Shown here piece after piece: positions 2,527 through 22,264 of a stretch of 22,264 nucleotides of DNA (positions are counted from its first letter, which is position 1; the number at the start of each line of letters is the position of its first letter). This stretch comes from a virus. The stretch lies in IMG/VR virus record IMGVR_UViG_3300042870_001990, positions 1-22,264 of that record; one strand, 5' to 3'. The notes beneath the pieces are model-generated. The model searched no databases, was not told the DNA's origin, and saw only the letters and a list, made by a program, of their open reading frames with translations. The translations under genes and the position numbers were made by a program.

Positions 2527-2952
2527 ATGCCCACCCAACGCGAAATCATCTTAACCGCCTTGGCAGATGCCTTTCGCACGATCCCGCATGTGCCGGTTCT
2601 GCGCGGCGAGGTGCTGCCTGAGCGCATCCCATCCGCAGGGCTGCTGATCCTGCGCGACGGCAACCCGGGCGATCCGGAGGTCACACTGTCCCCGCTGCGC
2701 TATCACTACCAGCAGCGGGCGGAACTTGAGGTCATCGTGCAGGCAAGCGGTGATCGTGATACACGATTTGACCAACTCATCGCCCGGATAGGTGCCTCCA
2801 TCGCTGTTGAGCGTACATTGGGTGGGCTCTGCGACTGGGTCGAGCCGGCAGCACCTGAGCCTGTCGATCTCGCTGTTGAAGGGGCAACCAGCCTAAAGGC
2901 AGCCGTTGTGCCCATCATCCTACATTACTCGCTGGCCGATCCACTTGGCTGA
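2527..2952 (+). CDS. Tail terminator-like protein (gpU position)
   Basis: A 141-residue protein starting MPTQREIILTALADAFRTIP. The pattern of an N-terminal helix, a central segment predicted as strands (LRYHYQQRAELEVIVQASG) and a C-terminal strand pair resembles tail terminator or tail completion proteins of the lambda gpU type. Position between the neck genes and the tail tube gene agrees. ATG 2527 was chosen because it gives a clean family-like N-terminus. The upstream GTG 2497 would add ten residues (IDFLSENNP...) and lies only 14 bases from the tRNA 5' end; no clear Shine-Dalgarno separates them. The 3' end overlaps the convergent bactofilin gene by 28 bases. Function is inferred mostly from place and size. 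Confidence 0.5.
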   Translation: MPTQREIILTALADAFRTIPHVPVLRGEVLPERIPSAGLLILRDGNPGDPEVTLSPLRYHYQQRAELEVIVQASGDRDTRFDQLIARIGASIAVERTLGGLCDWVEPAAPEPVDLAVEGATSLKAAVVPIILHYSLADPLG

Positions 2953-3299
2953 GCGGGTTCCGGGGGCGGGGTTATCATTCTCAGATGGCCCTCGATCATC
3001 GCCCCGGCTTCCACGGCCAGTTTGGAGTAATGAACTGAGCCGTTGATTTGACCGGAATGTGCAACCCGGACATCCTCCGCGATCACAGCGCCAACCACGA
3101 CGCCTTCAATCGTTGCCTGCTTGGCCTCAATGTCGCCCTTTACATCGGCCCAATGCTCAATCGTCACGATCTCACCGGTGATGTTGCCGACAACACGCGC
3201 TTGAACCACCAAGGGGCCGGTGCTGGTAATATCACCCGTGACTTCGAGATCCGGTGCGAGGACGGAAGGTTTTGCCGTGCTTGGTGTGAGAGTGGTCAT
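2925..3299 (-). CDS. Bactofilin-type polymer-forming protein
   Basis: A 124-residue protein with a core of repeated short beta-strands with Gly and Val/Ile at regular steps (VTGDITSTGPLVVQ, VVGNITGEIVTIE, VKGDIEAKQATIEG, INGSVHYSKLAVEAG, IEGHLRM). This is the right-handed beta-helix pattern of bactofilins, which form non-nucleotide-dependent filaments at membranes and cell poles. Short disordered tails flank the core, the C-tail being Pro-rich (PPPEPAQPSGSASE). ATG 3299 is preferred (GAAGG about ten bases upstream); ATG 3332 would add eleven residues. It is antisense to the late operon and overlaps the end of the tail terminator-like gene. A bactofilin is not a virion component in any phage I know, so a cargo role is inferred. 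Confidence 0.8.
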   Translation of the reverse strand: MTTLTPSTAKPSVLAPDLEVTGDITSTGPLVVQARVVGNITGEIVTIEHWADVKGDIEAKQATIEGVVVGAVIAEDVRVAHSGQINGSVHYSKLAVEAGAMIEGHLRMITPPPEPAQPSGSASE

Positions 3300-3429
3300 T
3301 CGAGGTCTGCCTTCGGGTCGTGTCTGCACCATAGGTGCGTTGGCTGAGCGCTTGTCCCAGCATGAATTGCCTCTGCGTCAAATGCAATTGCTGCTCCTCT
3401 AACCAAAATCCGCTGAAAAGGATACCAAA
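3300..3429. other. Divergent intergenic region between bactofilin and tail tube genes
   Basis: These 130 bases lie between the two outward-facing starts. The right side carries the tail tube ribosome binding site AAAAGGA at 3416-3422. The rest is less GC-rich than the flanks and is the natural place for a bactofilin promoter. The only candidate seen on the minus strand is a TTGACG hexamer near 3380, but no acceptable -10 box lies 16-18 bases further, so no promoter is called. Confidence 0.5.
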
Positions 3430-4817: not shown

Positions 4818-5044
4818 ACCAGCCAATAACTTTCGAGGGTTGGCTGGTCTGGGACCTGGTCGGCCGCCTTGGGGGTCAGTTGCGCATCGTCCCCGGCGCT
4901 GTGATCGGCTGGGACATGAACGCGGCCTTTGCGCTTGGTGCGTCCCTCGGCATTCCGGCCCCAGCGATCGCTGAACTTTTACCTGCCATCGAGGCGGTGA
5001 TGGTGCGTAAGGTAAATGACCGGCTCGGCTCAGGCGGCCTTTAG
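4724..5044 (+). CDS. T-like extension of the tail assembly chaperone (made by -1 frameshift, fused from 4380)
   Basis: Read after -1 slippage at 4718-4724, this adds 106 residues to the first 115 of the chaperone, giving a 221-residue GT-like protein. The added part has a Cys cluster C-x2-C-x3-C-x2-C (CAACGSVCPDC) like a zinc knuckle, then a compact domain (FEGWLVWDLVGRLGG; GWDMNAAFALGASLGI; IEAVMVRKVNDRL). No plausible start with a ribosome site is seen at its head. The first in-frame start-like codons lie inside the domain, so frameshift expression is the simplest explanation. In lambda the T domain binds the tail tube subunit and G binds the tape measure protein. The last 15 bases overlap the convergent higA gene. 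The G-rich linker and Cys cluster are direct observations; zinc binding is inferred. Confidence 0.65.
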   Translation, partial: RLIARAEWEFGGGDGYCAACGSVCPDCPTRLNQPITFEGWLVWDLVGRLGGQLRIVPGAVIGWDMNAAFALGASLGIPAPAIAELLPAIEAVMVRKVNDRLGSGGL

Positions 5045-5320
5045 AGGTGTGATGTGTGAGACGTCGATTGTCTCTCGGGCACGCGCCAAATCCCAAGCGC
5101 GCTGGAGGTTCATCCAATACTCTGGCGTGGTTGAGAAAAACTGAGCAAGCCGCATCGCAGTATCAATCGTGATGGCGGTCTGGCCTTTAACAAGGCGCTC
5201 GATACGGGTTCTCGGCACTTCGAGCCTGCCGGCGAGCGAAATCGGGCTCATGTCGAGTGGCATGAGATAAAGCTCCGCCAGGACTTCGCCCGGGTGGGAT
5301 GGATTGGTTACGAGGCTCAT
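5030..5320 (-). CDS. higA: HigA-type antitoxin (XRE helix-turn-helix)
   Basis: A 96-residue protein beginning MSLVTNPSHPGEVLAELYLMPLDMS, the hallmark start of the HigA addiction-module family. The helix-turn-helix is in the middle (LAGRLEVPRTRIERLVKGQTAIT, then TAMRLAQFFSTTPEYWMNLQRAWDL). It should neutralise the HigB toxin and repress its own operon. ATG 5320 was chosen because AGGAGGG (complement of 5327-5333) lies six bases upstream; this site overlaps the higB stop codon. In this family toxin precedes antitoxin, and that order is present here, with 11 bases between. The gene is antisense to the tail operon and its 3' end overlaps the T-like reading frame by 15 bases. Confidence 0.9.
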   Translation of the reverse strand: MSLVTNPSHPGEVLAELYLMPLDMSPISLAGRLEVPRTRIERLVKGQTAITIDTAMRLAQFFSTTPEYWMNLQRAWDLARARETIDVSHITPLKAA

Positions 5321-5331
5321 GTTTAGCCCTC

Positions 5332-5613
5332 CTAGTGATAGTCCAGAATCTCGACCTCGGCAGGTCCCTGATCGGTCCAGATGAAACAAATGCGCCATTG
5401 GCCGTTGATGCGCACCGAATGTTGTCCTGCACGGTCACCGCTCAAAGCTTCCAAATGGTTGCCGGGCGGGAACCGCAAGTCTTCGAGAACGACGGCCGCA
5501 TCCAAGGCTGAAAGCATGGCGCGCGTTCTCTTAACCAAGTCAGCAGGAAAGCCTTTGCCGAAGCGACCTTGAACCGCTCCAGCGGCAAGCTTTCCACGTG
5601 TGCTGAAGATCAT
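5332..5613 (-). CDS. higB: HigB-type toxin (RelE superfamily mRNA interferase)
   Basis: A 93-residue protein of HigB size. The family signature is present: a central segment with LVKRTRAMLSALDAAVVLEDLRFPPGNHLEALSGDRAGQ and a C-terminal strand pair (HSVRINGQWRICFIW...VEILDYH). The closing ...DYH with its terminal His matches the usual HigB end. Such toxins cut mRNA on the ribosome. ATG 5613 gives the normal N-terminus; ATGs at 5631 and 5628 would put the start inside the palindrome upstream. It forms an operon with higA and is probably repressed by HigA bound to the inverted repeat at 5620-5640. It lies antisense just before the tape measure gene. Confidence 0.88.
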   Translation of the reverse strand: MIFSTRGKLAAGAVQGRFGKGFPADLVKRTRAMLSALDAAVVLEDLRFPPGNHLEALSGDRAGQHSVRINGQWRICFIWTDQGPAEVEILDYH

Positions 5614-5619
5614 AATGGC

Positions 5620-5640
5620 ATGTATCATCATGTGATACAT
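5620..5640. promoter_or_regulatory. Palindromic operator of higBA
   Basis: A perfect inverted repeat with 8-bp arms, ATGTATCA and TGATACAT, around a 5-bp spacer TCATG. It lies seven bases upstream of the higB start and 17 bases before the tape measure start. Placement and symmetry are what is expected for the HigA-HigB autorepression site. It is the only clear AT-rich palindrome in this GC-rich stretch. Confidence 0.7.
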
Positions 5641-5657
5641 ATTGCAAGGGCAATACC

Positions 5658-8165
5658 GTGGCCGAAAAACGCATCTCTGTCCGGCTTGCCGCGGTGGGTG
5701 GCCGTCAAGTTCGTGCTGAGCTGGAAGGTGTGGGCCAGGCCGGATCCAAAGGCTTTGGACGTCTCTCACGCGAGATGGAGCTGGCCAACGCCCGTCTTGC
5801 GGGTTTTGCGCGCAAAGCCGGAATTGCCCTTGGAGCTGCGGCCGCGGCAGCGACAGCGTCGCTGGGCGTTATTGTGCGATCCACGGCACAGAGTGCTGCC
5901 GAGATCACCCAGTTTGCCCAGATCGCCAATGCCGCGCCGGAGGCTTTCCAGCGCTGGACGGCCGCATCGGTGACGGTCGGGATCGAACAAGAGAAACTCG
6001 CCGATATTCTGAAGGACGTGAACGACCGGGTGGGGGACTTCCTGCAGACGGGCGGCGGCCCGATGGCGGACTTTTTTGAGAAGATCGCGCCGAAGGTGGG
6101 GGTGACGGCTGAAGAGTTTGCACGGCTCTCGGGACCTGAGGCGCTGCAGCTTTATGTCTCAAGCTTGGAGAAGGCGGGCGTCAACAGCCAAGAGATGACC
6201 TTCTATCTCGAGGCGATGGCCTCGGATGCCACGCGGCTCATTCCCTTGCTGCAAGACGGTGGCGCGGAGATGGCGCGGTTGGGCGAGCGGGCGGCGGGGC
6301 TTGGGGTGGTGCTTGACCAAAGGGCGCTCAGCGCCTTGCGACGGGCAGAGTTGGCCCTGATCGGTGTGGGTCAGGTCTTTGAGGGCATGCGCAATCAGAT
6401 CGGCGCGGCTTTGGCGCCTGCGGTGGCGGCTCTCGCCGAGGGGTTTGTGCGGCTGGCGGAGGTTGGTGGGCCTATCAATCGGGCCTTCACCGCCGTAATC
6501 GACAATCTCGGCCGGCTGACAACCTATGCCGCAACTTTTGCGACGGTCATGGTGGGGCGCTGGGTGGTGGGATTGGCTGCTGCGGCCCTCTCCGTGAAGG
6601 GCCTCGCCACGGCGCTGGTCTTTCTGCGCGGCGCTTTGATACGCACTGGGATCGGCGCGCTCATCGTGGGCGCGGGCGACCTTGTTTACCAGTTCACGCA
6701 ACTTGTGGGCAAAGTCGGTGGGGTTGGCACCGCCTTCGGCCTCTTGCGTGATGTCGCGGCAGAGGCCTGGGATCGCCTTGCGCTGGCAGCCACAGCGGCG
6801 TGGTCGCGCGTTGAGGCCGGCTGGGTGGACACACAGGCGGGGATTTACGGTGGGCTGCAATCGGCGCTGTCGGCTGTGGTAGCCTGGGGCAATTCTGCTG
6901 TCGGGACGTTCCAGGGCGCTTTTGACGGGGTGAAGGCGATCTGGGGCGCGCTGCCGCAGGCCATCGGGGATTTTGCCTATCAAGCGGCGAATGGACTGAT
7001 CGGTGGTGTCGAGTCGATGTTGAATGCGGTGGTTACGCGCATCAACAGCTTCATCGAAGGTCTGAACGCGGCGCTGGCCCTCCTGCCTGATTGGGCGACG
7101 GGTGAAGCTGGCCTAAGAATCGGCACACTCGAGGCGGTGGACCTCGGCGGAATTACCAATCCCTTCGAAGGCGCAGCCTTGGCGGCAGGCACGGCTGCTG
7201 CTGACGCGTTCCGTGCGGCCATGGGCAAGACCTATATCAAGGCACCTGATCTCTTCGGTGGCATGGCGGAGGCAGCACGCGGTCGCGCTTCCGGCTATGG
7301 TGAGGCGGCGGGTATGCTCTCGGAGGCCGCCTCCCGCCCGATGAACGCTTGGGAGGCCCTCAAGGCAGCAATCACCGGCGCGGGGAGAGAGGGCGAGGAC
7401 GCTTTGGCTGGTGCTACTGAGGCGGCGGGCGCTGTATCCGATGGCTTTGATGCGGCAGGCCAAGCCGCTGGTGGGGCGGGCGGTGCGGCCAAGAAGGCGG
7501 CAGAAGAAGCGGCGACCGGCTGGGCGCAGGTTACAAAGTCCCTCGCGGACTATGCCAAGGGCGCGATGGATTGGGGCAAAGGGCTTGGCGAGACGCTGAC
7601 CTCGGCCTTCTCTTCAGCGGAAAGCGCGTTCCGGCAGTTTGTGACCACCGGCAAGTTTGACTTCAAATCGCTGGTCTCCTCGATCTTGGCGGACCTCGCG
7701 ACGCTTGCCTTCAAGAATGCAGTGTTGGGCCCACTTGCTTCCGCACTTTCGGGCATCTTTGGCGGTGGGATCTTTGGGGGTGGGGCAGCGGCTGCCGCAA
7801 ACCCTATGGTGAACGCGAGCATCTGGCATACGGGCGGCATGGTGGGTGCGGGCGCGCCGATGCGCGCGGTGCCAGTCACCGCCTTTGCAGGTGCCCCTCG
7901 GCTGCATACAAGTGGCTGGGCAGGACTTCGACCTGATGAGGTTCCTGCGATCTTGCAGCGTGGAGAACGGGTGCTGAACCGTCGTGAGGCGGCTGGGTAT
8001 GGACGGGGCGCTGGCACCGGCGTAACCGTGAACATCGACGCACGCGGGGCGCAGATGGGCGTGGCCGAGCAGATTGATGCGCGGCTGCGGGCTGCCATCC
8101 CTGAAATCGCCCGCATCGCGAAGGAAAGCGTGGCCGATGGGCGGCGCCGGGGCCAGGTGATCTGA
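5658..8165 (+). CDS. Tail tape measure protein
   Basis: An 835-residue protein that sets tail length and probably leads DNA entry. The N-terminus (KRISVRLAAVGGRQVRAELEGVG) is typical of lambda-like tape measures. It is followed by an Ala-rich hydrophobic segment near residues 52-73, a second hydrophobic stretch near residues 295-345, helical Ala/Gly-rich regions, and a C-terminal block (FRQFVTTGKFDFKSLVSSILADLA, a Gly-rich GIFGGGIFGGG run, EVPAILQRGERVLNRREA) matching the lambda gpH C-terminal region. At roughly 0.15 nm per residue the tail would be about 125 nm. Start GTG 5658 has AAGGG at 5646-5650, seven bases upstream. The higB operator lies just before it. It follows the chaperone gene across the inserted higBA. 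Confidence 0.92.
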   Translation: MAEKRISVRLAAVGGRQVRAELEGVGQAGSKGFGRLSREMELANARLAGFARKAGIALGAAAAAATASLGVIVRSTAQSAAEITQFAQIANAAPEAFQRWTAASVTVGIEQEKLADILKDVNDRVGDFLQTGGGPMADFFEKIAPKVGVTAEEFARLSGPEALQLYVSSLEKAGVNSQEMTFYLEAMASDATRLIPLLQDGGAEMARLGERAAGLGVVLDQRALSALRRAELALIGVGQVFEGMRNQIGAALAPAVAALAEGFVRLAEVGGPINRAFTAVIDNLGRLTTYAATFATVMVGRWVVGLAAAALSVKGLATALVFLRGALIRTGIGALIVGAGDLVYQFTQLVGKVGGVGTAFGLLRDVAAEAWDRLALAATAAWSRVEAGWVDTQAGIYGGLQSALSAVVAWGNSAVGTFQGAFDGVKAIWGALPQAIGDFAYQAANGLIGGVESMLNAVVTRINSFIEGLNAALALLPDWATGEAGLRIGTLEAVDLGGITNPFEGAALAAGTAAADAFRAAMGKTYIKAPDLFGGMAEAARGRASGYGEAAGMLSEAASRPMNAWEALKAAITGAGREGEDALAGATEAAGAVSDGFDAAGQAAGGAGGAAKKAAEEAATGWAQVTKSLADYAKGAMDWGKGLGETLTSAFSSAESAFRQFVTTGKFDFKSLVSSILADLATLAFKNAVLGPLASALSGIFGGGIFGGGAAAAANPMVNASIWHTGGMVGAGAPMRAVPVTAFAGAPRLHTSGWAGLRPDEVPAILQRGERVLNRREAAGYGRGAGTGVTVNIDARGAQMGVAEQIDARLRAAIPEIARIAKESVADGRRRGQVI

Positions 8166-9780: not shown

Positions 9781-12324
9781 ATGCCCTTCATTGTGACAGC
9801 CGTCACCGCGGTCGCGGGGGCGATTGGCGGCGTTTTGGCCGCCGGTGGCATTGGGGCTGCCCTCATTCGGATTGGGGGCACGCTCCTTCTGTCCTATGCG
9901 GCCCAGGCGCTCATGCCAAAGCCGCAAATGACGCTGCAGGCGCGGACGGTCACGGTGCGCGAGCCTGTGATGCCGCGCGATCTTGTTTACGGGCGCACCC
10001 GCAAAGGCGGGGTCATTGTCTTTCTGCATTCCTCCGGATCAGAAAACCAATACCTCGATCTGGTCATCGTTCTTGCGGCGCACCGGGTCAAATCGATCGG
10101 CGCCATCTACTTCGAGGGCGAGATGGCCCTCAGTGCTGCCGGCGTCGCCCAAGGTCGCTGGGCCGGAAAAGTCCTCGTCGAAAAGAAACTCGGCACCGCC
10201 AACCAGACAGCCTTCGTGGGTCTTAAGGCTGCGCTGCCTGACAAATGGACCGAGAACCATCGGCTGCGCGGCTGTGCGGCAATCCGGCTGCGGCTCACCT
10301 ATGATCAGGATGCTTTCCCGGGCGGCATTCCGAACATCACGGTGGACATCGAGGGCAAGGACGACATCTTTGACCCCCGCACAGAAACTCATGCCTATTC
10401 AGAAAACCCTGCGCTGTGCCTTGCCGATTATATGGCGCATCCGGAGTTCGGGATCCGGGCAGAGATCGGGGCGGCGGATGGGGTTGACCGGATGAGCCTC
10501 GTTGAGGCGGCCAACATTTGTGATGAGGTGGTGGCCAAGGTCGGGGGTGGGACAGAGCCGCGCTATGCCTGCAATGGGGTGATCTCGCTTTCCGAGCCTC
10601 CAAAGACAATCATCGAGGGGATGCTCTCGTCTTTTGCCGGGCGCTGCGCCTTCTCGGGCGGGGCCTGGCGCATCCATGCCGGGGCTTGGGCTGTGCCATC
10701 GGTGGCGCTGACCTCGGATCATGTCCGGGAGGGTGGTCTCACCTTGGCGACGCGCGTGACGATGTCGTCAAACTTCAACGCGGTTCGGGGCCAGTTTGTG
10801 AGCCCCGAGAATGACTGGCAGCCGGATGACTTCCCGGCCTATGCGAGCGATGTCTATCTCGCCGAGGACGGTGGGGAGCGGCGGTGGCGCGATATCTCGC
10901 TGCCCTTCACAATATCGGCCTCCATGGCGCAGCGGCTCGCCAAGATTGAGCTTGAACGCGCGCGTCGACAGATGACGGTGCGGCTCTCGGGGAAACTGTC
11001 GGCCTGGGCCGCAACGGTGGGGGATGTGGTGACGCTCTCCTATGCGCGCTGGGGCTTTGCCGCCAAACCGTTTGAGGTGCATGGGGTCAGCCTCGATCTA
11101 ACCGTCTCAGGCGATGGCGCGCTGTTGCTGCCAGAACTCGTTCTGCGTGAGACCTCGCCCTTGGTGTACGACTGGGCGGCCTCGGAAGCGCGGATTTATG
11201 CGGCCGCGCCACGCACCAGCCTGCCGTCGGCGCGGGATATCCCGGCGCCTGGGGCGCCGCAGGCCACTGAGGAGATCTATGTCACCCGTGATGGCGGCGG
11301 GCTCAAGGTTTTGGCGCGGGTCACCTGGGCCGCGGCACCCTCAAGCTTTGTCGCGGCCTATCAGCTGCAGGCCCGCCAAGGCTCGGGGGCTTGGCAGGAT
11401 TATGGGCGGACCGATGGAACCAGCCTTGAGATCCGCGACATCGCGCCAGGTGGCTGGTCCTACCGGGTCAAGGCAGTGTCGGTGCTCGGTGTCTCATCGA
11501 GTTGGCAGACGAGCACGGTTGAGATCCGCGGCCTGACGGCACCGCCGGCGCAGCTTGAGAACGTCACTCTACAGACCGCAGGTGGCCTTGCGATCCTCAA
11601 ATGGACCCGCTCGGCCGATCCCGATGTAAGGGTCGGCGGCAACATCGTGATCCGACACTCGAAGGAAGCGACGGCCACCTGGGCCGACAGCTATTCGATG
11701 GACCGGGTCTCGGGTGGCGAGGCCATCGCCGTCGTGCCGCTGAAACCCGGTACCTACCTGGTGCGCGCCGAGGATAGCGGCGGCCGTGCCGGTCCCGAAA
11801 CCCGCGTCTCGACCAAGGGCGCGCAGGTGCTGGCATTCTCGCCTTTGGGCATGCTGCAGGCTGATCCGGGGTTTGTGGGTTCAAAGACCGGGCTCATGGT
11901 TGCCACAGGCACTCTAACGCTCGCCACGGCAACGGTAAATGGTGTGACGCAGGTGACGTCGTTGGAGGGGCAGTATGGCTTTGCCGCCGGGCTCGATCTT
12001 GGGGCGATCAAGCGTGTCCGACTTCGCTCAGAAATCGGTGTGGCGGCTCTGGCGCTCAACGACCGGATCGATGCACGCACCGCGCTCATGGACACATGGG
12101 CGGACTTTGATGGGGCCGCCGGGGCAGAGATCGATGTGCTCTTTGAGATCCGAGAGACCGATGACAACCCAAGTGCAAACCCCATCTGGGGTCCTTGGGG
12201 TCGACTGGACACCCATGAGATTGAGGCCCGCGCGGTTCAGGCGCGGGCCATCCTCTCGACGAAGGACGCGTCCTACACGCCCATCGTCACCCAATTGCGG
12301 CTATATGCCGATGAGGTCGCCTGA
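9781..12324 (+). CDS. Host specificity / tail tip protein, gpJ-like
   Basis: An 847-residue protein at the tail tip, expected to bind the host receptor. The N-terminus is hydrophobic with many Ala/Gly (residues 1-43), followed by the phage tail domain (PRDLVYGRTRKGGVIVFLHSSG; AHRVKSIGAIYFEGEMA) and the block with NPALCLADYMAHPEFGIRAEIG. Two fibronectin type III-like segments follow (about residues 495-585, with GSGAWQDYGRTDG, and 585-675, with PGTYLVRAEDSGGRAG). The C-terminal part is beta-rich. ATG 9781 was chosen; a TTG further upstream overlaps the preceding gene and adds a non-homologous stretch. The stop shares one base with the next start. Confidence 0.88.
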   Translation: MPFIVTAVTAVAGAIGGVLAAGGIGAALIRIGGTLLLSYAAQALMPKPQMTLQARTVTVREPVMPRDLVYGRTRKGGVIVFLHSSGSENQYLDLVIVLAAHRVKSIGAIYFEGEMALSAAGVAQGRWAGKVLVEKKLGTANQTAFVGLKAALPDKWTENHRLRGCAAIRLRLTYDQDAFPGGIPNITVDIEGKDDIFDPRTETHAYSENPALCLADYMAHPEFGIRAEIGAADGVDRMSLVEAANICDEVVAKVGGGTEPRYACNGVISLSEPPKTIIEGMLSSFAGRCAFSGGAWRIHAGAWAVPSVALTSDHVREGGLTLATRVTMSSNFNAVRGQFVSPENDWQPDDFPAYASDVYLAEDGGERRWRDISLPFTISASMAQRLAKIELERARRQMTVRLSGKLSAWAATVGDVVTLSYARWGFAAKPFEVHGVSLDLTVSGDGALLLPELVLRETSPLVYDWAASEARIYAAAPRTSLPSARDIPAPGAPQATEEIYVTRDGGGLKVLARVTWAAAPSSFVAAYQLQARQGSGAWQDYGRTDGTSLEIRDIAPGGWSYRVKAVSVLGVSSSWQTSTVEIRGLTAPPAQLENVTLQTAGGLAILKWTRSADPDVRVGGNIVIRHSKEATATWADSYSMDRVSGGEAIAVVPLKPGTYLVRAEDSGGRAGPETRVSTKGAQVLAFSPLGMLQADPGFVGSKTGLMVATGTLTLATATVNGVTQVTSLEGQYGFAAGLDLGAIKRVRLRSEIGVAALALNDRIDARTALMDTWADFDGAAGAEIDVLFEIRETDDNPSANPIWGPWGRLDTHEIEARAVQARAILSTKDASYTPIVTQLRLYADEVA

Positions 12325-12980
12325 TGCCCCAGACAACCAGCTTTGTGATTGCCAATGATGCGGGCGCGGCGGTGCGCGCGCGCATCAATGAGGTGATCGC
12401 CGCGCTGCACTCCACAAGTTCGGGTGCTACGGTGCCTGTGGCCACCACCGCGGGTATGCTCTGGGTCGATACCTCGGTCTCGCCGCCCGTCCTGCGCAGG
12501 CGCAATACAACGAACACAGGCTGGGATGCACTTTTGGATGCGGCGGGCAATCTCTCGGGCCTCGCAAATACGGCCATGGCACGCACGAACCTCGGGCTTG
12601 GCACAATGGCCACACGCTCAACGGCAGATTATGACGCGGCGATTGCAGCCAAGGCCAGTCTGACGGGGGCGACCTTCACAGGCGTTGTGACCGCGCCGAA
12701 CTTCGTCTCCTCGTCAGATGCCCGGTTCAAATCCGAGGTCGAAACCATCACAGGGGCATTGGCCATCGTCTCAGCCCTGCGCGGCGTGCGCTTTACCATG
12801 GATGGCAGCCGCCAGATCGGCGTCATCGCCCAGGAGGTCGAGACCGTCCTGCCCGAAGTCGTGCGCGTGGGTGAAGCGGGTCAGCTCTCTGTCGCTTACG
12901 GCAATATCACCGGCCTTCTCATCGAGGCCGTCAAGGAACTCACCGCCCGGGTGGCGGCGCTTGAGGAGGCACGTCCATGA
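12324..12980 (+). CDS. Short tail fibre protein with S74 intramolecular chaperone domain
   Basis: A 218-residue protein coupled to gpJ by a one-base overlap. Residues 1-125 hold a fibre-type stem (TTAGMLWVDTS, TNTGWDALLDAAGNLSGLANTAMARTNLGLGTMA). Residues 126-218 are a peptidase S74 chaperone domain (NFVSSSDARFKSEVE ... IGVIAQEVETVLPEVV ... VAYGNITGLLIEAVKELTARVAALE). Ser131 and Lys136, five residues apart, fit the self-cleaving Ser/Lys pair, so cleavage before Ser131 would release the chaperone after trimerisation. The C-terminal ..KELTARVAALE.. is a coiled coil. The S74 half is very similar to the one at 17964-18557, so this phage has two such proteins. The N-terminal half would be the mature fibre. 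Confidence 0.85.
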   Translation: MPQTTSFVIANDAGAAVRARINEVIAALHSTSSGATVPVATTAGMLWVDTSVSPPVLRRRNTTNTGWDALLDAAGNLSGLANTAMARTNLGLGTMATRSTADYDAAIAAKASLTGATFTGVVTAPNFVSSSDARFKSEVETITGALAIVSALRGVRFTMDGSRQIGVIAQEVETVLPEVVRVGEAGQLSVAYGNITGLLIEAVKELTARVAALEEARP

Positions 12981-15340: not shown

Positions 15341-16024
15341 TCAGTTCTTGCCGCAGCACTGCTTGTATTTGCGACCCGAGCCGCAGGGGCATGGATCGTT
15401 GCGGCCGGGGCGCGGCGCGGATTTGAACGGCTGGCCGGGGAGATTGGCCGGGACCCCGCCGACCAGTTCGGGGCGCGATTGGTGCAGGATCGTCGCCACG
15501 CAGTTCGGGATCAGATCAGGCGCCTCTTGGTCGATCTGGTCGATCTCTTCATCGCTGAACTTGCTGTTCCCCGTGTAGATATCCTGCAGCGCCATGATGA
15601 AAATCATGGTCTCACGGGTCTCGTCATCGGCCCGATCGAGGAGCGCCTCCCAGGCCTTGGGCCTCAAGGCCATGGCGCGTGTGAAGCCATCAACCCAAGG
15701 TTCCCAGAGGGTCTCGTCGCTGTTCGTGTCGATCTCGTAGATCGGTTCGACCCAGAGCGATTGCGTGATCCGGGCAGCGACATCGTTGTAATGGGCCATC
15801 ACCGCGCCGATCGTCTCCTGCGCCGAGGCGAGGTCGGGGAATTGCGCATCTCCCGTGACACCCCAGACCTGCGAGAGCCAATCGGAGGGCGGGATCATCT
15901 CGGGGCAGGCCAGAAGGCCCGTCACGAAGCCATCCAGCTCGCTGACCGTCATAGGTTCGTTCTCGACGGGCAGCGCCTGCAAGAGGTCTTCCAGACGGTC
16001 GAGCCGTTCGTCGTCCTGATCCAT
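15341..16024 (-). CDS. UPF0149/YecA-like protein with C-terminal SEC-C motif
   Basis: A 227-residue protein. The N-terminal two thirds match the UPF0149/YecA family ([31 protein letters not shown], then [20 protein letters not shown]). The C-terminus is a SEC-C zinc-binding motif ([17 protein letters not shown]), as in SecA and many small host proteins. ATG 16024 is fixed by AGGAGG seven bases upstream; an upstream ATG at 16063 lies before this ribosome site. The role of such proteins is poorly known; the SEC-C motif binds zinc and contacts ribosomes or SecB in SecA. It is antisense and not structural, so it is cargo. It separates the lysis genes from the fibre operon. Confidence 0.85.
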
Positions 16025-16126
16025 GACCCGTTCCTCCTGCAGCTGCGCTCCCCTTAGCCGCAATGGCCTGAATTCTCAATCGAACTCGTTCCGACCAGGC
16101 CGCTCGGATGGTCCGCGGAGGCATGC
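16025..16126. other. Divergent intergenic region between UPF0149 and fibre operon
   Basis: About 100 bases with ribosome sites at both ends: AGGAGG for the minus-strand gene and GGAGG at 16117-16121 for the plus-strand fibre operon. Promoters for both directions should lie here or be absent for the plus side if late readthrough is used. A minus-strand TTGAGA box exists, but without a good -10 box, so no promoter is called. Confidence 0.5.
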
Positions 16127-17963: not shown

Positions 17964-18557
17964 ATGGCCAACACGCTTCTCGTCAAGCGCACGACCGTGG
18001 CAGGCCGTGTGCCTACCACGGCGCAGCTGGCCGCGGGGGAACTGGCCGTCAATGTCACCGACGGCAAGCTCTACCTCAAGAAAAGCACGAGCGGGGTCGA
18101 AAGCATCGTCGATGTGACATCGGCCGCGCTCACTGACGCCCAGATCTTCGCCAAGGTCACAGCGCAGGATGGCGCGGGGTCCGGCCTTGATGCCGACCTG
18201 CTCGATGGCAGCCATGCCAGTGCTTTCGCACTCCTGAGCGGAGCGACCTTCTCTGGCACGGTGACCGCACCGAACTTCGTCTCATCCTCGGACGCGCGGC
18301 TCAAAGCCGATATTGCGCCAATCCAGGACGCTCTTCCGAAGGTGCAGGCCCTAACCGGCGTCACCTTCACGATGGTAGGCAGCAATCTGCGGCAGATGGG
18401 TCTCATCGCACAGCAAGTCAAAGTTGTCGCGCCGGAGGCCGTCGTCGAGGCCGAGGGCATCTTGCGCCTCGCTTATGGCAATCTCGTGGGTCTCCTCGTC
18501 GAGGCCATCAAAGACCTCGCAGCAGAGGTCGATCAGTTGAAAAGGACCGCGCGATGA
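17964..18557 (+). CDS. Second tail fibre protein with S74 intramolecular chaperone domain
   Basis: A 197-residue protein. The N-terminus (MANTLLVKRTTVAGRVPTTAQLAAGELAVN) resembles the start of the fibre gene before it. A DLLDGSHASAF fibre motif follows at about residues 79-89, then an S74 domain (NFVSSSDARLKADIAPI ... MGLIAQQVKVVAPEAVV ... LAYGNLVGLLVEAIKDLAAEVDQLK). Ser109 and Lys114 match the self-cleavage pair. The domain is very close to the one in the gene at 12324, over protein and partly over DNA (the GTGACCGC.CCGAACTTCGTCTC stretch). It starts two bases after the fibre stop and its own stop overlaps the next start. It may act as chaperone for the fibre assembly or be a fibre by itself. 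Confidence 0.85.
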   Translation: MANTLLVKRTTVAGRVPTTAQLAAGELAVNVTDGKLYLKKSTSGVESIVDVTSAALTDAQIFAKVTAQDGAGSGLDADLLDGSHASAFALLSGATFSGTVTAPNFVSSSDARLKADIAPIQDALPKVQALTGVTFTMVGSNLRQMGLIAQQVKVVAPEAVVEAEGILRLAYGNLVGLLVEAIKDLAAEVDQLKRTAR

Positions 18558-19456
18558 TCGAGACAGGGCTTTATGCCATTACGAACTGCGGCGTCCCGCG
18601 CCATTATGCCGTAGACATCAAGCCGGACTATGTCGCCGTCGCGGTCTTTGAGTTTTCGGCGCCTGGCACCTCGAGCGCTATGGGCGGGGTCATGCTTTGG
18701 GCAGACCTGCTCGCCCATCTCGAGGCGCGGCCGGCCTTCGGTAATCAGGCAGGCTTTGTCGATCTATCCCATAACGAGAGCTTCATCCCCGATCTGCCGG
18801 GCGCGCCTGTGGGCGCGGTCTACAAGGGCAGGTCCTGCATCTTCGCTGCTGGCATGCGCGGACATGACGAGTTGGTCGATTACTCGCTGATCGATATGGC
18901 TGTCGGCGCCGATGGGCGGCCGCTGTCGTGGCGGAACCGCTTTGCCCAATCCGCGCGCGAGAAGGTCGATACGTCCTTTCGGCATCGGGCGCGGGAAGGG
19001 ATATCCAATGCGCTTGTGGTCTTCCTGCCCGTGGTCGTGCCTTTCGATCAGGCACGCGTGGAGGTACTTTGCCAGATCCCACCCATCCTTCTGAACGGCA
19101 CGGTGCTGGCAGGGACCATCGATGACGCCACGATCCCCAAAGATGGGCTCTGGTACAAGCAGTTCTACTTCCATGGCGTTGGTCCGCAGATTGCCACCGT
19201 GATGGCTGGCGGACGCGTGGATGTGCCTGTCGCACTTCGGTGGAATGCCGATGGCTCGGCCTTTGCACATCCCGTGATGCTGAAACTCGAGGCAGATGCG
19301 GGCTACCTGCCGAAGCGGCGCCTGCTGACCGCACCAGATGGAACTGGCAGCTTCGCCGTCGAGGCTGCGGGTCTTTCCCCCGGCGATCGCATTACCGTGA
19401 AACTCAACACCGAGCATTACACCGCGATCGGGAAGATTGTGGTGGAGGTGGTCTGA
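18554..19456 (+). CDS. Unknown fibre-operon protein with Ig-like C-terminus
   Basis: A 300-residue protein that I do not recognise. It has a mixed N-terminal half (GLYAITNCGVPRHYAVDIKPDYVAVAVFEF; SHNESFIPDLPGAP; CIFAAGMRGHDELVDYSLIDMAV) and a C-terminal strand-rich segment (residues about 215-300, MAGGRVDVPVALRWNADG ... SFAVEAAGLSPGDRITVKLN) resembling an Ig-like domain. No signal or membrane helix is seen. The start overlaps the S74 protein stop (ATGA) and the stop shares a base with the oxygenase-like gene, so it is coupled on both sides. It may be a fibre or host-surface binding protein, or an accessory part of the modification system downstream. Confidence 0.55.
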   Translation: MIETGLYAITNCGVPRHYAVDIKPDYVAVAVFEFSAPGTSSAMGGVMLWADLLAHLEARPAFGNQAGFVDLSHNESFIPDLPGAPVGAVYKGRSCIFAAGMRGHDELVDYSLIDMAVGADGRPLSWRNRFAQSAREKVDTSFRHRAREGISNALVVFLPVVVPFDQARVEVLCQIPPILLNGTVLAGTIDDATIPKDGLWYKQFYFHGVGPQIATVMAGGRVDVPVALRWNADGSAFAHPVMLKLEADAGYLPKRRLLTAPDGTGSFAVEAAGLSPGDRITVKLNTEHYTAIGKIVVEVV

Positions 19457-20196
19457 TGGAATTTCACACCACAAGCGAGTTCCAGCTGATCTACCCGAGC
19501 TTTGTGCTGCACAAGCATTGGGAGATGCCGGAGGGCTTCAACGACCGGCTTCATGCGCTTGCGGTCCACGATGCCGAGACCAATCGGATCCGCGAGGTTA
19601 GCGATGGGCGCAATGTCGGGGACCTGACCAATCACCTTGGCCATCTGCGGCACAACTTTCTGATGGACCGGCGAGACCCAGCGCTGGCCGTTTTGGCGCA
19701 GATGGTGGCTGCGGGCGTGCGGGAATATCTTCAGCTGGCCTATGGCTACGGCCACACTGGCGATATCTGCATGATGTCGGACACGTTCTGGCAGCGCCGC
19801 GCTGCCCGCGAAAACGTGGGCATCAACACCCACACCCATATCCAGACCGACATCGTCTGCACCTACTACCCGCGGGTGGCGCTGGACGCCGATTGCCCGG
19901 ACACCTCGCTGCATCGCGGGGCGGTGCGGTTTTATGATCCTGCGAATGTTGGCAAGCGGCTTTGGCCCTGCCGGAACCCCGACGCCTATGTCGGCGGCTG
20001 GTATGCGGTCTATCCGAAGGCAGGCTCGATGCTCGTCTTCGAAGGGCATGTTCCCCACGACAGCACTTACTTCGAGGGCGAGGAGCGGATGTGTATCCCG
20101 GTCCTCTGTTCGCTCGAACTCCCGAATTCTCACCGCAAGGTCAGGCTCGCAGAGATCTTGGCCCATCAGGCGCAAGGAGGCAGCTATGGCGTATAA
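19456..20196 (+). CDS. 2OG-Fe(II) oxygenase-like protein, phage-type (Oxy_5 group)
   Basis: A 246-residue protein. Pattern of the double-stranded beta-helix oxygenases of the PF13759 type: NTHTHIQTDIVCTYY aligns residue by residue with the HxHp...SGvyY motif (His126 and His128 as metal ligands). It is followed by AVRFYDPANVG, then AVYPKAGSMLVFEGHVPHDS, which is the FPswlpH motif (His201), and an Arg at 211 (GEERMCIPV) as usual for 2OG binding. Such enzymes hydroxylate proteins or small molecules. The start overlaps the preceding stop, and the last bases overlap the next start. Placed directly before a Cys-rich small protein, a second oxygenase and a radical SAM gene, so a protein-modifying role on a fibre-type substrate is inferred. 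Confidence 0.72.
   Translation: MEFHTTSEFQLIYPSFVLHKHWEMPEGFNDRLHALAVHDAETNRIREVSDGRNVGDLTNHLGHLRHNFLMDRRDPALAVLAQMVAAGVREYLQLAYGYGHTGDICMMSDTFWQRRAARENVGINTHTHIQTDIVCTYYPRVALDADCPDTSLHRGAVRFYDPANVGKRLWPCRNPDAYVGGWYAVYPKAGSMLVFEGHVPHDSTYFEGEERMCIPVLCSLELPNSHRKVRLAEILAHQAQGGSYGV
20174..20180 (+). promoter_or_regulatory. Ribosome binding site AAGGAGG of the Cys-tail protein
   Basis: A full consensus Shine-Dalgarno, five bases before ATG 20186 and inside the coding end of the oxygenase. Among the coupled genes here this is by far the strongest site, so the small Cys-tail protein is probably made in larger amount than the enzymes around it. Confidence 0.65.
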
Positions 20197-20500
20197 GGTT
20201 GGAACGACCATCGTGATTGATGACAGCGGAAACGTGGACTGGTCGCGCATCGCCAACAAGCCCGCGATCGGTACGGGCGATGTGACGGGTGTGACGGTGG
20301 TCAACGGGACCCCAACGTCAGGTGCCACAGGTTCCTCGACTGGCGCGGTCTATGGCACAGGGACGATCAATACCAACTTCAACGGTACAACGACCTACAA
20401 CTGCTACGTTGAAAGCCTTTCGGGCGGTGGCACCGCAGGGGCGGTCACGATCACGGCCAACCGCAAGACCTTCAACTGCAACTGCGCCTGCCGGTGCTGA
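20186..20500 (+). CDS. Small fibre-like protein with alternating-Cys C-terminus (candidate substrate of the modification enzymes)
   Basis: A 104-residue protein. Residues 1-30 (MAYKVGTTIVIDDSGNVDWSRIANKPAIG) have the W-x-x-I-x-x-KP motif also seen in the fibre at 16717 (PWAGITDKP). The middle is Gly/Thr/Ser/Asn-rich and beta-like, without charge. The end is TFNCNCACRC: Cys at 98, 100, 102 and 104, the last as terminal residue; one more Cys at 73. An alternating C-x-C-x-C-x-C tail with Asn, Ala and Arg between is unusual, and could be a site for thioether or disulfide linkages or metal binding. ATG 20186 has AAGGAGG at 20174-20180. It lies between two oxygenase-like genes and just before a radical SAM protein, so it is the natural substrate candidate. 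That link is an inference. Confidence 0.8.
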   Translation: MAYKVGTTIVIDDSGNVDWSRIANKPAIGTGDVTGVTVVNGTPTSGATGSSTGAVYGTGTINTNFNGTTTYNCYVESLSGGGTAGAVTITANRKTFNCNCACRC

Positions 20501-20502
20501 CA

Positions 20503-21129
20503 ATGGAGGCTCAAAGCACCACCCTGGAGCTCTGGCCGACGCGGGTCACCTTCTTTGAAACGCCGGTGGACTGGGACGCTGACCGGCGGCTTGCCGACGA
20601 AGCAATCGCGGCTGTAACGGGCAATTCTACGCGCCTGTCTGCGGCCGAGCGCCGAGTGCGGGGCATTCTCGAGCGTAGTGAAGCCGGCCAAGCCCTGAAA
20701 TCCCACCTCTTCGCCTGCGCGCGTGCGGTCCTCGGCCCCTGGGCCCAATATCTCGACCCCTCCCATTGCGAAAACCGCGCCCTCGTCATCGAGCCCGGTG
20801 GCTTCATCTCGACCCACAAGGACAGCCGGGAGGGGGATCTCACTTGCGTACACTTCCTCACCGGCAGCGGGGCGGGGCGGCCGGTGAACTCTGTTGGCAC
20901 CCCGCGTTTTGTGATCGAGGATCCGTCGCGCTACTTTGATGAGGGACGGCTGCCCTATGAGAGCCGTCATGGCTACTCGGTCAATCCGCGGCCAGGGCTC
21001 TCAGTCTTCTTCCCTTCCCACATTCCCCACAACCAGCACCCCTATGAGGGGAGCGCGCCGCATGTGCAGGTCGTCGCGAACTTCCGCGTCAACTTGCCTG
21101 TGGCGATCGAGGAAAGGTTTTTTGACTGA
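20503..21129 (+). CDS. Second 2OG-Fe(II) oxygenase-like protein
   Basis: A 208-residue protein with a beta-helix oxygenase pattern: PGGFISTHKDSREGDLTCVHFLTG gives an H-x-D pair (His105, Asp107). FVIEDPSRY follows, then PGLSVFFPSHIPHNQHPYEG, which holds the distal His (His176), and a closing VVANFRVNL strand. It differs clearly from the oxygenase at 19456, which has an H-x-H type motif, so the two are not simple copies. ATG 20503 was chosen; the GTG at 20494 overlapping the previous stop would add three residues. It begins two bases after the Cys-tail protein, and its stop shares a base with the radical SAM start. The substrate is unknown. Confidence 0.68.
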   Translation: MEAQSTTLELWPTRVTFFETPVDWDADRRLADEAIAAVTGNSTRLSAAERRVRGILERSEAGQALKSHLFACARAVLGPWAQYLDPSHCENRALVIEPGGFISTHKDSREGDLTCVHFLTGSGAGRPVNSVGTPRFVIEDPSRYFDEGRLPYESRHGYSVNPRPGLSVFFPSHIPHNQHPYEGSAPHVQVVANFRVNLPVAIEERFFD

Positions 21130-22264
21130 TGTGGTTCGACCTGACGCTCGAAGCGCGTGACGGCAGCCGCCATCACATGCGCTACAACCCGCACACATCG
21201 GAATGCGAGGGGCTGCCGCTGCCGGTGAACCCGGGAACCTTCGCGCCGGTACCGCGTGTCGCCAAAGACAAGCCCCTCGGAAAATCGCGCGCTCCCCGCA
21301 TCCTGAAGATCCAGCTCGGGCTCTCGTGCAACTATGCCTGCAGCTATTGCAGCCAGGCCTTCCAGATTGCGGATGCGACAGTCTCGAAGTTTGCGGATGT
21401 CGAGCACTTCCTGACCGAGCTGGACGGCTGGATTGCCCAAGCCCCAGAAAAGATCGAGCTTTGGGGCGGGGAGCCGTTTCTGTATTGGGCCAAGATCAAG
21501 CGGCTGATCCCGGCGCTGGCGGAGCGGTTCCCGAAGGCAGCCTTCTCAATCATCACGAATGGGTCGCTCCTTGACCGTGAAAAGCTCAACTTCATTGTCG
21601 CGCATGACATCGCCATCACGATCTCGCATGACGGGCCCGGCCAGCATTTGCGCGGGCCTGATCCTTTTGATGATCCCGAAAAGCGGCGCTGGATTGAAGC
21701 TCTGCTGGCGGAGCGGCCGGGGAGGACCGGCTTCAACGCAGTGCTGACGCGGGGGAACCATGATCTCAGGGCGCTGAAGGCATGGTTCGCTGAAAAGGTC
21801 GGGCCGGACATCTTCGTGGGGCTCGAGGGCGTGGTGAACGTTTATGACGCCGCGACTGCCATCGGGACGGGGCGGTTTGAGCCCGCAGAACTGAACAGCC
21901 TGACGTGGTCGGTATTCGAGGCGCTGGTTGAGGATCCGAACGCCTTCGGTCTCGGGGAGCGCATCAACGAATTCTACGCCTCGATCCAACGGCGGCGGCC
22001 GATCCAAGCCCTCGGTCAGAAATGTGGAATGGACAGCGCGGACGCCATCGCAGTTGATCTGCGTGGGAACGTCATGACCTGTCAGAACACAGGTGCCAAG
22101 GGGGCGCACAAGATCGGTCATGTTGCTGACTTTGACGCAATCGCGCTCGACACTGCGACGCATTTTGCCTTCCGGGAGGAATGCATGTCATGCCCGGTCG
22201 TTCAGCTCTGCAAGGGATCGTGCATGTTCCTCGAGGGGGAGTTCTTCAAGCAGAGCTGCGCGAA
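21129..22264 (+). CDS. Radical SAM/SPASM protein (partial, 3' end outside window)
   Basis: At least 378 residues, open to the right edge. It has the radical SAM site CNYACSYC (Cys67, Cys71, Cys74), a GGEP motif at 113-116 for SAM binding, and TIM-barrel strands (FSIITNG; ITISHDG). A SPASM domain follows: Cys299-x13-Gly313-x4-Cys318, then Cys352-x2-Cys355-x5-Cys361-x3-Cys365 and Cys377, which is the complete seven-Cys plan for two auxiliary iron-sulfur clusters. SPASM enzymes modify ribosomally made peptides (thioether, carbon-carbon or other links) or proteins. No leader-binding RRE domain is seen at the N-terminus; the first 55 residues are a separate small segment (DGSRHHMRYNPHTSECEGLPLPVNPG). 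It is coupled to the oxygenase before it. Confidence 0.93.
   Translation, partial: MWFDLTLEARDGSRHHMRYNPHTSECEGLPLPVNPGTFAPVPRVAKDKPLGKSRAPRILKIQLGLSCNYACSYCSQAFQIADATVSKFADVEHFLTELDGWIAQAPEKIELWGGEPFLYWAKIKRLIPALAERFPKAAFSIITNGSLLDREKLNFIVAHDIAITISHDGPGQHLRGPDPFDDPEKRRWIEALLAERPGRTGFNAVLTRGNHDLRALKAWFAEKVGPDIFVGLEGVVNVYDAATAIGTGRFEPAELNSLTWSVFEALVEDPNAFGLGERINEFYASIQRRRPIQALGQKCGMDSADAIAVDLRGNVMTCQNTGAKGAHKIGHVADFDAIALDTATHFAFREECMSCPVVQLCKGSCMFLEGEFFKQSCA

Follow-up and report, generated by a model that had tools for sequence, protein, structure and literature searches.

Phage adhesins are regarded as plain folded proteins, sometimes with a bound metal. The receptor-binding tip of the trimeric T4 fibre protein gp37 carries a short i, i+2 motif, and its HxH iron sites were described together with the Trojan Horse idea (PMC11705849). 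The fibre-like protein analysed here likewise ends in a short i, i+2 motif, but with Cys in place of His and with genes for dedicated modifying enzymes close by. The commonest reaction of SPASM enzymes on Cys-rich substrates is thioether formation. QhpD (TIGR03906), the thioether maturase of quinohemoprotein amine dehydrogenase, is a radical SAM/SPASM enzyme whose substrate is an entire protein subunit and not a small peptide, as would also hold for the enzyme of our locus; in contrast, the substrate here would be a phage fibre with Asn-Cys repeats instead of QhpC, and the score against the QhpD model is far under its cutoff. The PapB ranthipeptide and CteB/SCIFF maturases, which provide the best sequence model (PapB) and the best fold (CteB) for our enzyme, also have Cys-rich substrates adjoining the enzyme. 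Our system differs from these in an enzyme that falls under all family cutoffs and shows no RRE in its structure model, and in a candidate substrate with alternating Asn-Cys repeats, where a fibre domain replaces the leader.

The biosynthesis of polytheonamide, which has alternating D-residues and an Asn ladder, involves both a radical SAM and a 2OG enzyme, and proteusins of this type (PoyD epimerase, PoyI hydroxylase) resemble our locus in combining a radical SAM enzyme and a 2OG-Fe oxygenase with an alternating Asn-containing repeat. Here, however, the NHLP/Nif11 leader was not found, Cys occupies every second position, and the product would remain on a structural protein. Hint domains cleave at their first residue via a thioester, as established for Hedgehog and inteins. 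In some relatives of our protein a Hint domain (PF05203/PF01079) of the Hint/Hedgehog/BIL autoprocessing type adjoins the tail, beginning at its last Cys or directly behind it; the protein studied here has no Hint domain, and the repeat preceding the Hint domain is itself likely the substrate of another enzyme.

Here we analysed the full length (22,264 bases) of a fragmentary virus record (the window). We conclude, with a probability of roughly three in four, that it encodes a phage-borne RiPP-like maturation cassette whose core and substrate are the C-terminal Asn-Cys repeats of a fibre. The enzyme types are known, but their use on a viral adhesin appears to be new, and no description of such a phage system was found in the open-access literature outside bioRxiv.

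Results

Organization of the locus

The genes of the putative cassette are listed in Table 1. They are packed head to tail from 18554 to 22262 in what looks, from the gene arrangement, like one translationally coupled operon: TGATG overlaps occur at the junction of G5 with the first oxygenase-like gene (19456) and at the start of the radical SAM gene (21129), and the second oxygenase-like frame opens at GTG 20494, with its ATG three bases past the stop codon of the fibre-like gene. The tail genes upstream code for one phage-tail-repeat protein (PF12789) and two fibre proteins with S74 chaperone domains (PF13884); the latter (12324-12980 and 17964-18557) are short, end in the same kind of chaperone domain and are possibly duplicated. 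The window also encodes, on the minus strand, a bactofilin (2925-3332; PF04519, 8e-21), a polymer-forming cytoskeletal protein, and a tRNA-Met (2407-2482), both inside the structural gene region, a HigB-like toxin (PF05015) with an HTH antitoxin-like protein between tail genes (5030-5769), likely a type II toxin-antitoxin pair, and, immediately ahead of the fibre genes, a UPF0149 protein that has a SEC-C motif (15341-16063).

Table 1 Features of the candidate maturation cassette and its 5′ neighbour in the window.
Feature	Position	Strand	Basis
Tail-fibre protein with S74 chaperone domain, directly 5′ of the cassette	17964..18557	+	PF13884 2e-12
G5, uncharacterised, about 300 aa, C-terminal Ig-like domain, recurrent cassette member	18554..19456	+	Present in 141/166 tail cassettes; model pLDDT 92.7
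2OG-Fe(II)-oxygenase-like protein 1, overlapping the fibre start	19456..20196	+	PF13759 4.4e-5, TIGR02466 1.1e-6, phrog_81 2e-7
Fibre-like protein, candidate substrate, 104 aa, MAYKVGTTIVIDD...FNCNCACRC	20186..20500	+	ORF; homologues at about 27-29 loci
Internal Asn-Cys dyad in the body of the fibre-like protein	20399..20404	+	Sequence; alignment; matches NCNCxxNC of several relatives
C-terminal N-C-N-C-A-C-R-C tail	20474..20497	+	Sequence; N and C columns unchanged across 33 distinct homologues
2OG-Fe(II)-oxygenase-like protein 2, ATG 20503	20503..21129	+	phrog_81 1e-5, PF13759 0.012; H-x-D and distal H
Radical SAM/SPASM maturase, truncated at its 3′ end where the contig stops	21129..22262	+	PF04055 4.4e-9; TIGR04085; phrog_1802 2e-52

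Neither oxygenase-like protein reached the PF13759 gathering score of 27 (24.2 bits for protein 1 and 16.4 bits for protein 2), and protein 1 was under the curated cutoff of TIGR02466 as well; the facial-triad residues were recognized by eye. The last 96 residues of G5 (205-300) formed an Ig-like domain of the intimin/invasin type (Z about 10), such as is also found in the neck protein of phage Chi. The remainder of G5 matched only uncharacterised phage proteins, its N-terminal part gave no PDB structure match in the search with whole G5, and PDB sequence searches with G5 and both oxygenase-like proteins found no useful relative. As a guess, G5 could serve as a chaperone or belong to the virion as a protein associated with the tip.

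The Asn-Cys tail is conserved while the body of the protein varies

In the frame of ATG 20186, the codons AAC TGC AAC TGC GCC TGC CGG TGC TGA (20474-20500) confirmed the four alternating Cys that the preliminary description had noted at the very C-terminus of a Gly/Thr/Ser-rich protein, where they belong to the last eight residues. The protein itself had no match in Pfam and PHROG profile searches or in a tblastn search of annotated phages, and we call it fibre-like by inference from its tail-fibre gene neighbours (PF12789, PF13884). Several unrelated proteins bearing the same tail did match PHROG tail-fibre families. Neither of the leaders expected of a proteusin precursor, nitrile-hydratase-like or Nif11, was found in it by Pfam and NCBIfam search. 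It has no signal peptide and no lipobox, leaving the lipid-type anchoring proposed earlier unsupported.

A scan of viral contigs placed relatives of the fibre-like protein at about 27-29 loci, and more came with the enzyme. Among 33 distinct homologues, taken from IMG/VR and from bacterial genomes, the tails read NCNCACRC (12), NCNCNCRC (12), NCNCNCNCRC (4), NCNCNCACRC (3), NCNCNCDCQCYC (1) and NCNCQCYC (1), so that the general form (NC)n-xC-[RY]C was present in 33/33, with a body that varied or was replaced. The N and C columns of NCNCxCxC were 100% conserved, compared to at most 80% for most columns of the body. The codons of the tail varied synonymously (AAC 66/AAT 24; TGC 122/TGT 19) in the same 33 homologues, indicating that the protein sequence is the level at which the tail is conserved. 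Judged by these sequences, the alternating-Cys tail is not due to chance. The number of Cys varied (4-6 in the family of the window fibre) and the alternation was never lost, which was the pattern that the preliminary description had proposed to look for among homologues. Homologues with an absent or random tail, which it had named as refuting evidence, were not what we observed, and the invariance of the tail under a changing body bore out its view of the tail as real and functional.

At the loci L022-L028 the middle of the protein was swapped for an unrelated one, with the N-terminal 29 aa and the tail kept. One of these, L025, lies on the same contig as L032 and has an enzyme 95% identical to that of the window beside the swapped-body fibre. 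From sequence, such a swap would be expected if the tail were the substrate of something and the body a variable receptor-binding part.

The tail and the radical SAM/SPASM enzyme are linked in both directions

The radical SAM/SPASM and oxygenase genes directly downstream of the tail, which the preliminary description had not noticed, provided the key evidence on its role. Starting from distinct loci found by enzyme homology alone and having at least 4 kb of upstream sequence, we found an alternating-Cys ORF near the enzyme on the same strand in 97 of 106 and on the opposite strand in three of the 106. Nine enzyme loci lacked a same-strand tail despite long upstream flanks, some of them being truncated enzyme copies. 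Two loci (L070, L086) carried two radical SAM genes of the family separated by four other genes; a Cys-repeat ORF was not found there, and these loci may hold a related system that acts on a different substrate.

In the reverse direction, viral contigs were scanned with the DNA pattern (AAYTGY)4 alone and 80 loci were read. The pattern lay inside an ORF in the Asn-Cys frame at 66 of these. The enzyme was present at 34/34 in-frame loci with at least 4 kb downstream, one of which (L247) is doubtful owing to a weak enzyme match on the other strand; each of the 14 in-frame loci without an enzyme had a downstream flank shorter than 4 kb. None of the 14 out-of-frame control loci had the enzyme. Its gene was nearly always on the same strand as the tail ORF and downstream of it, at a median of 1.0 kb. 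The tail proteins fell into 17 clusters at 40% identity, the largest with 28 loci, which argues against one lineage copied many times.

Bacterial genomes gave a similar picture. Among 248 Rhodobacteraceae genomes the pattern occurred four times, in two genomes, with a full-length enzyme gene beside each occurrence. Most pattern matches in 250 Comamonadaceae genomes were (AACTGC)n microsatellites in other frames; three genomes had real terminal or Hint-linked tails, and the enzyme was found in 3/3. The locus shows the linkage of a candidate substrate gene to a modifying enzyme that is expected of a RiPP cassette.

Composition of the tail and of the cassette

Nearly all of 166 enzyme-adjacent tails had at least four alternating Cys. 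The residue before Cys was Asn for 59% of 970 Cys in 95 distinct tail proteins, 7.3 times the background of 8%; the first two such positions were Asn in 151 and 150 of the 166 tails (~90%), and the last was relaxed (N, R, D, A, Y). An oxygenase gene was present in 113 and G5 in 141 of the 166 cassettes, the constant pair being enzyme and tail. The idea that Asn is conserved for the oxygenases only was dropped, as Asn preceded Cys in 72% of cases with an oxygenase gene and in 65% without one; this near-equal preference points rather to the radical SAM enzyme. At four loci (L064, L105, L106, L110) a conserved 69-aa protein was encoded between the oxygenase and radical SAM genes. A single enzyme gene stood next to a tandem of two or three different tail proteins at L223 (6202-7114), L054 (4488-4981) and L279, suggesting that one enzyme serves several fibres.

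The enzyme represents a subfamily of its own

The enzyme of the window exceeded the cutoffs of the radical SAM superfamily (PF04055, 37.1 bits, cutoff 29.5) and of the SPASM domain (TIGR04085, 32.9 bits, cutoff 27), and belongs to phrog_1802, placed by PHROG in the category ‘other’. Its CX3CX2C codons lie at 21327-21350 and those of the SPASM cysteines at 22023-22259. Across 35 diverse enzyme relatives C67, C71, C74 and GGEP were invariant, as were all seven Cys of the SPASM pattern CX9-15GX4C...CX2CX5CX3C...C (C299, C318, C352, C355, C361, C365, C377).

All 35 relatives matched the PapB, nif11-maturase, QhpD, HxsB and related models, each far under the curated cutoff. Assignment of the window enzyme to the PapB ranthipeptide maturases (NF047865; 70.2 bits, curated equivalog cutoff 340), QhpD (46-48 bits, cutoff 453), the SCIFF maturases (TIGR03974; 32.5 bits, cutoff 425, though CteB was the best fold match) and the anaerobic sulfatase maturases (TIGR03942; 39 bits, cutoff 349, with no C-x-A/P-x-R in the tail) was rejected on these scores. 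Since no curated maturase cutoff was reached, we regard the enzyme as a subfamily of its own, and family membership does not reveal its reaction. The structure model (pLDDT 90.6) was closest in fold to CteB (5why, Foldseek E 1.6e-12), followed by TigE, ChlB, anSME and SkfB; the match to EpeE was weaker than those to anSME and TigE. In this model the N-terminus was predicted as a beta hairpin, and an RRE-like winged helix was not seen; many maturases lack an RRE. The radical SAM protein of Campylobacter phage CP220 was rejected as the same system, giving only a partial match, with no such repeat in the CP220 genome.

Hint-fused and short variants of the tail protein

In sixteen tail proteins a further domain of 160-210 residues started with the final Cys of the tail or shortly behind it. 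It was a Hint domain in those scanned, with scores above the PF05203 gathering score (32.1) for L111 (47.5 bits) and L055 (35.3 bits) and below it for the others. Hint or Hint-like fusions were seen at L055, L058, L061, L065, L094, L096, L111, L112, L155, L162, L164, L167, L200 and L292, and at L055, L111, L112, L155 and L167 one and the same Cys was the last of the repeat and the first of the Hint or Hint-like domain. As Hint cleavage occurs at the first residue of the domain, these fibres should end in the repeat after processing, so that in both architectures the repeat would come to lie at a free C-terminus, the tip of a trimeric fibre.

Very short proteins (67-79 aa) with the repeat followed by TRGIL/SRGIL-like ends were encoded at L187, L193, L228 and L252. 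At L187 and several relatives the short tail protein directly preceded the enzyme gene. The short proteins look like RiPP precursors and are accompanied by neither G5 nor oxygenases.

Discussion

Action of the radical SAM enzyme on the tail is a strong inference and, in our estimate, highly probable. The enzyme would recognise the fibre and modify its C-terminal Asn-Cys repeats before or during assembly. Its most likely reaction would link Cys sulfur to a carbon atom of an adjacent residue, probably Asn, either inside one chain or across the three chains. Where one or two 2OG-Fe(II) oxygenases are encoded, these would add a further oxidation, for example a hydroxylation, and the fibre would assemble after modification. 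In the relatives with Hint domains, self-cleavage would expose the repeats as the mature C-terminus. The product would be a rigid, redox-proof tip of unusual chemistry on the adhesin with which the phage contacts the host envelope, and its purpose is presumably host attachment or fibre stability; the gain could possibly lie in stability, receptor contact or metal binding.

For the nature of the cross-link we give about even odds to a thioether, with Cys to Asn as the likeliest form. A thioether is favoured because Cys is invariant, SPASM enzymes acting on Cys-rich substrates mostly form thioethers, and CteB is the nearest fold. The same points weigh against the principal alternative, in which the Asn-Cys repeats are modified by the enzyme through another chemistry, namely epimerisation of alternate residues (PoyD/EpeE), formylglycine formation (anSME) or a C-C ring (TigE). 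This we consider unlikely, even though the closest folds include anSME and TigE (EpeE less so) and the alternating repeat resembles polytheonamide with its Asn ladder and its alternating D-residues; formylglycine formation is further disfavoured by the absence of C-x-A/P-x-R from the tail.

The tail could instead cap the fibre by binding metal or Fe-S, as a thiolate analogue of the HxH iron sites in T4 gp37, with the radical SAM enzyme serving something else. The i, i+2 ligands of three chains would indeed stack like the HxH tip, and the tail has C-x-C, but it contains no His and so no HxH. Metal binding needs no radical SAM maturase, yet the linkage of the two genes is near-absolute both ways, and ligation leaves the strong preference for Asn before Cys unexplained; this explanation is therefore improbable. 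Still less probable is release of the tail as a small modified peptide, a toxin or signal, with the fibre merely as its carrier. The precursor-like short versions directly before the enzyme gene would suit such a peptide, but most tails stand at the end of long fibre proteins that have phage attachment domains, Hint would cut behind the tail and not before it, and the cassette has no recurring protease or exporter. Plain interchain disulfides stapling the fibre tip, conceivable with up to twelve Cys near one another in a trimer, are very unlikely, as they need no radical SAM gene and phage proteins assemble in a reducing cytoplasm. Of the cross-links offered in the preliminary description, the thioether thus now leads, and disulfides alone fall away in leaving the enzymes unexplained.

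We consider it an evenly balanced proposition that these proteins form an undescribed and widespread class of viral adhesins with a cross-linked, receptor-contacting Asn-Cys tip made by a radical SAM enzyme, in whose Hint variant the C-terminus of the fibre would go through a thioester and may be joined to another molecule. The isolated Achromobacter phages JWF and 2-1 carry the system, their annotations describing gp028 solely as a Hint protein and listing gp030 as a radical SAM protein, and the proposal is directly testable on isolated phages. If it is correct, phrog_1802 gains a function, and the cassette may account for some of the 2OG oxygenases filed as viral auxiliary metabolic genes. 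Natural products would gain a structural role in virions, and host recognition could depend on amino-acid chemistry that is not readable from the gene.
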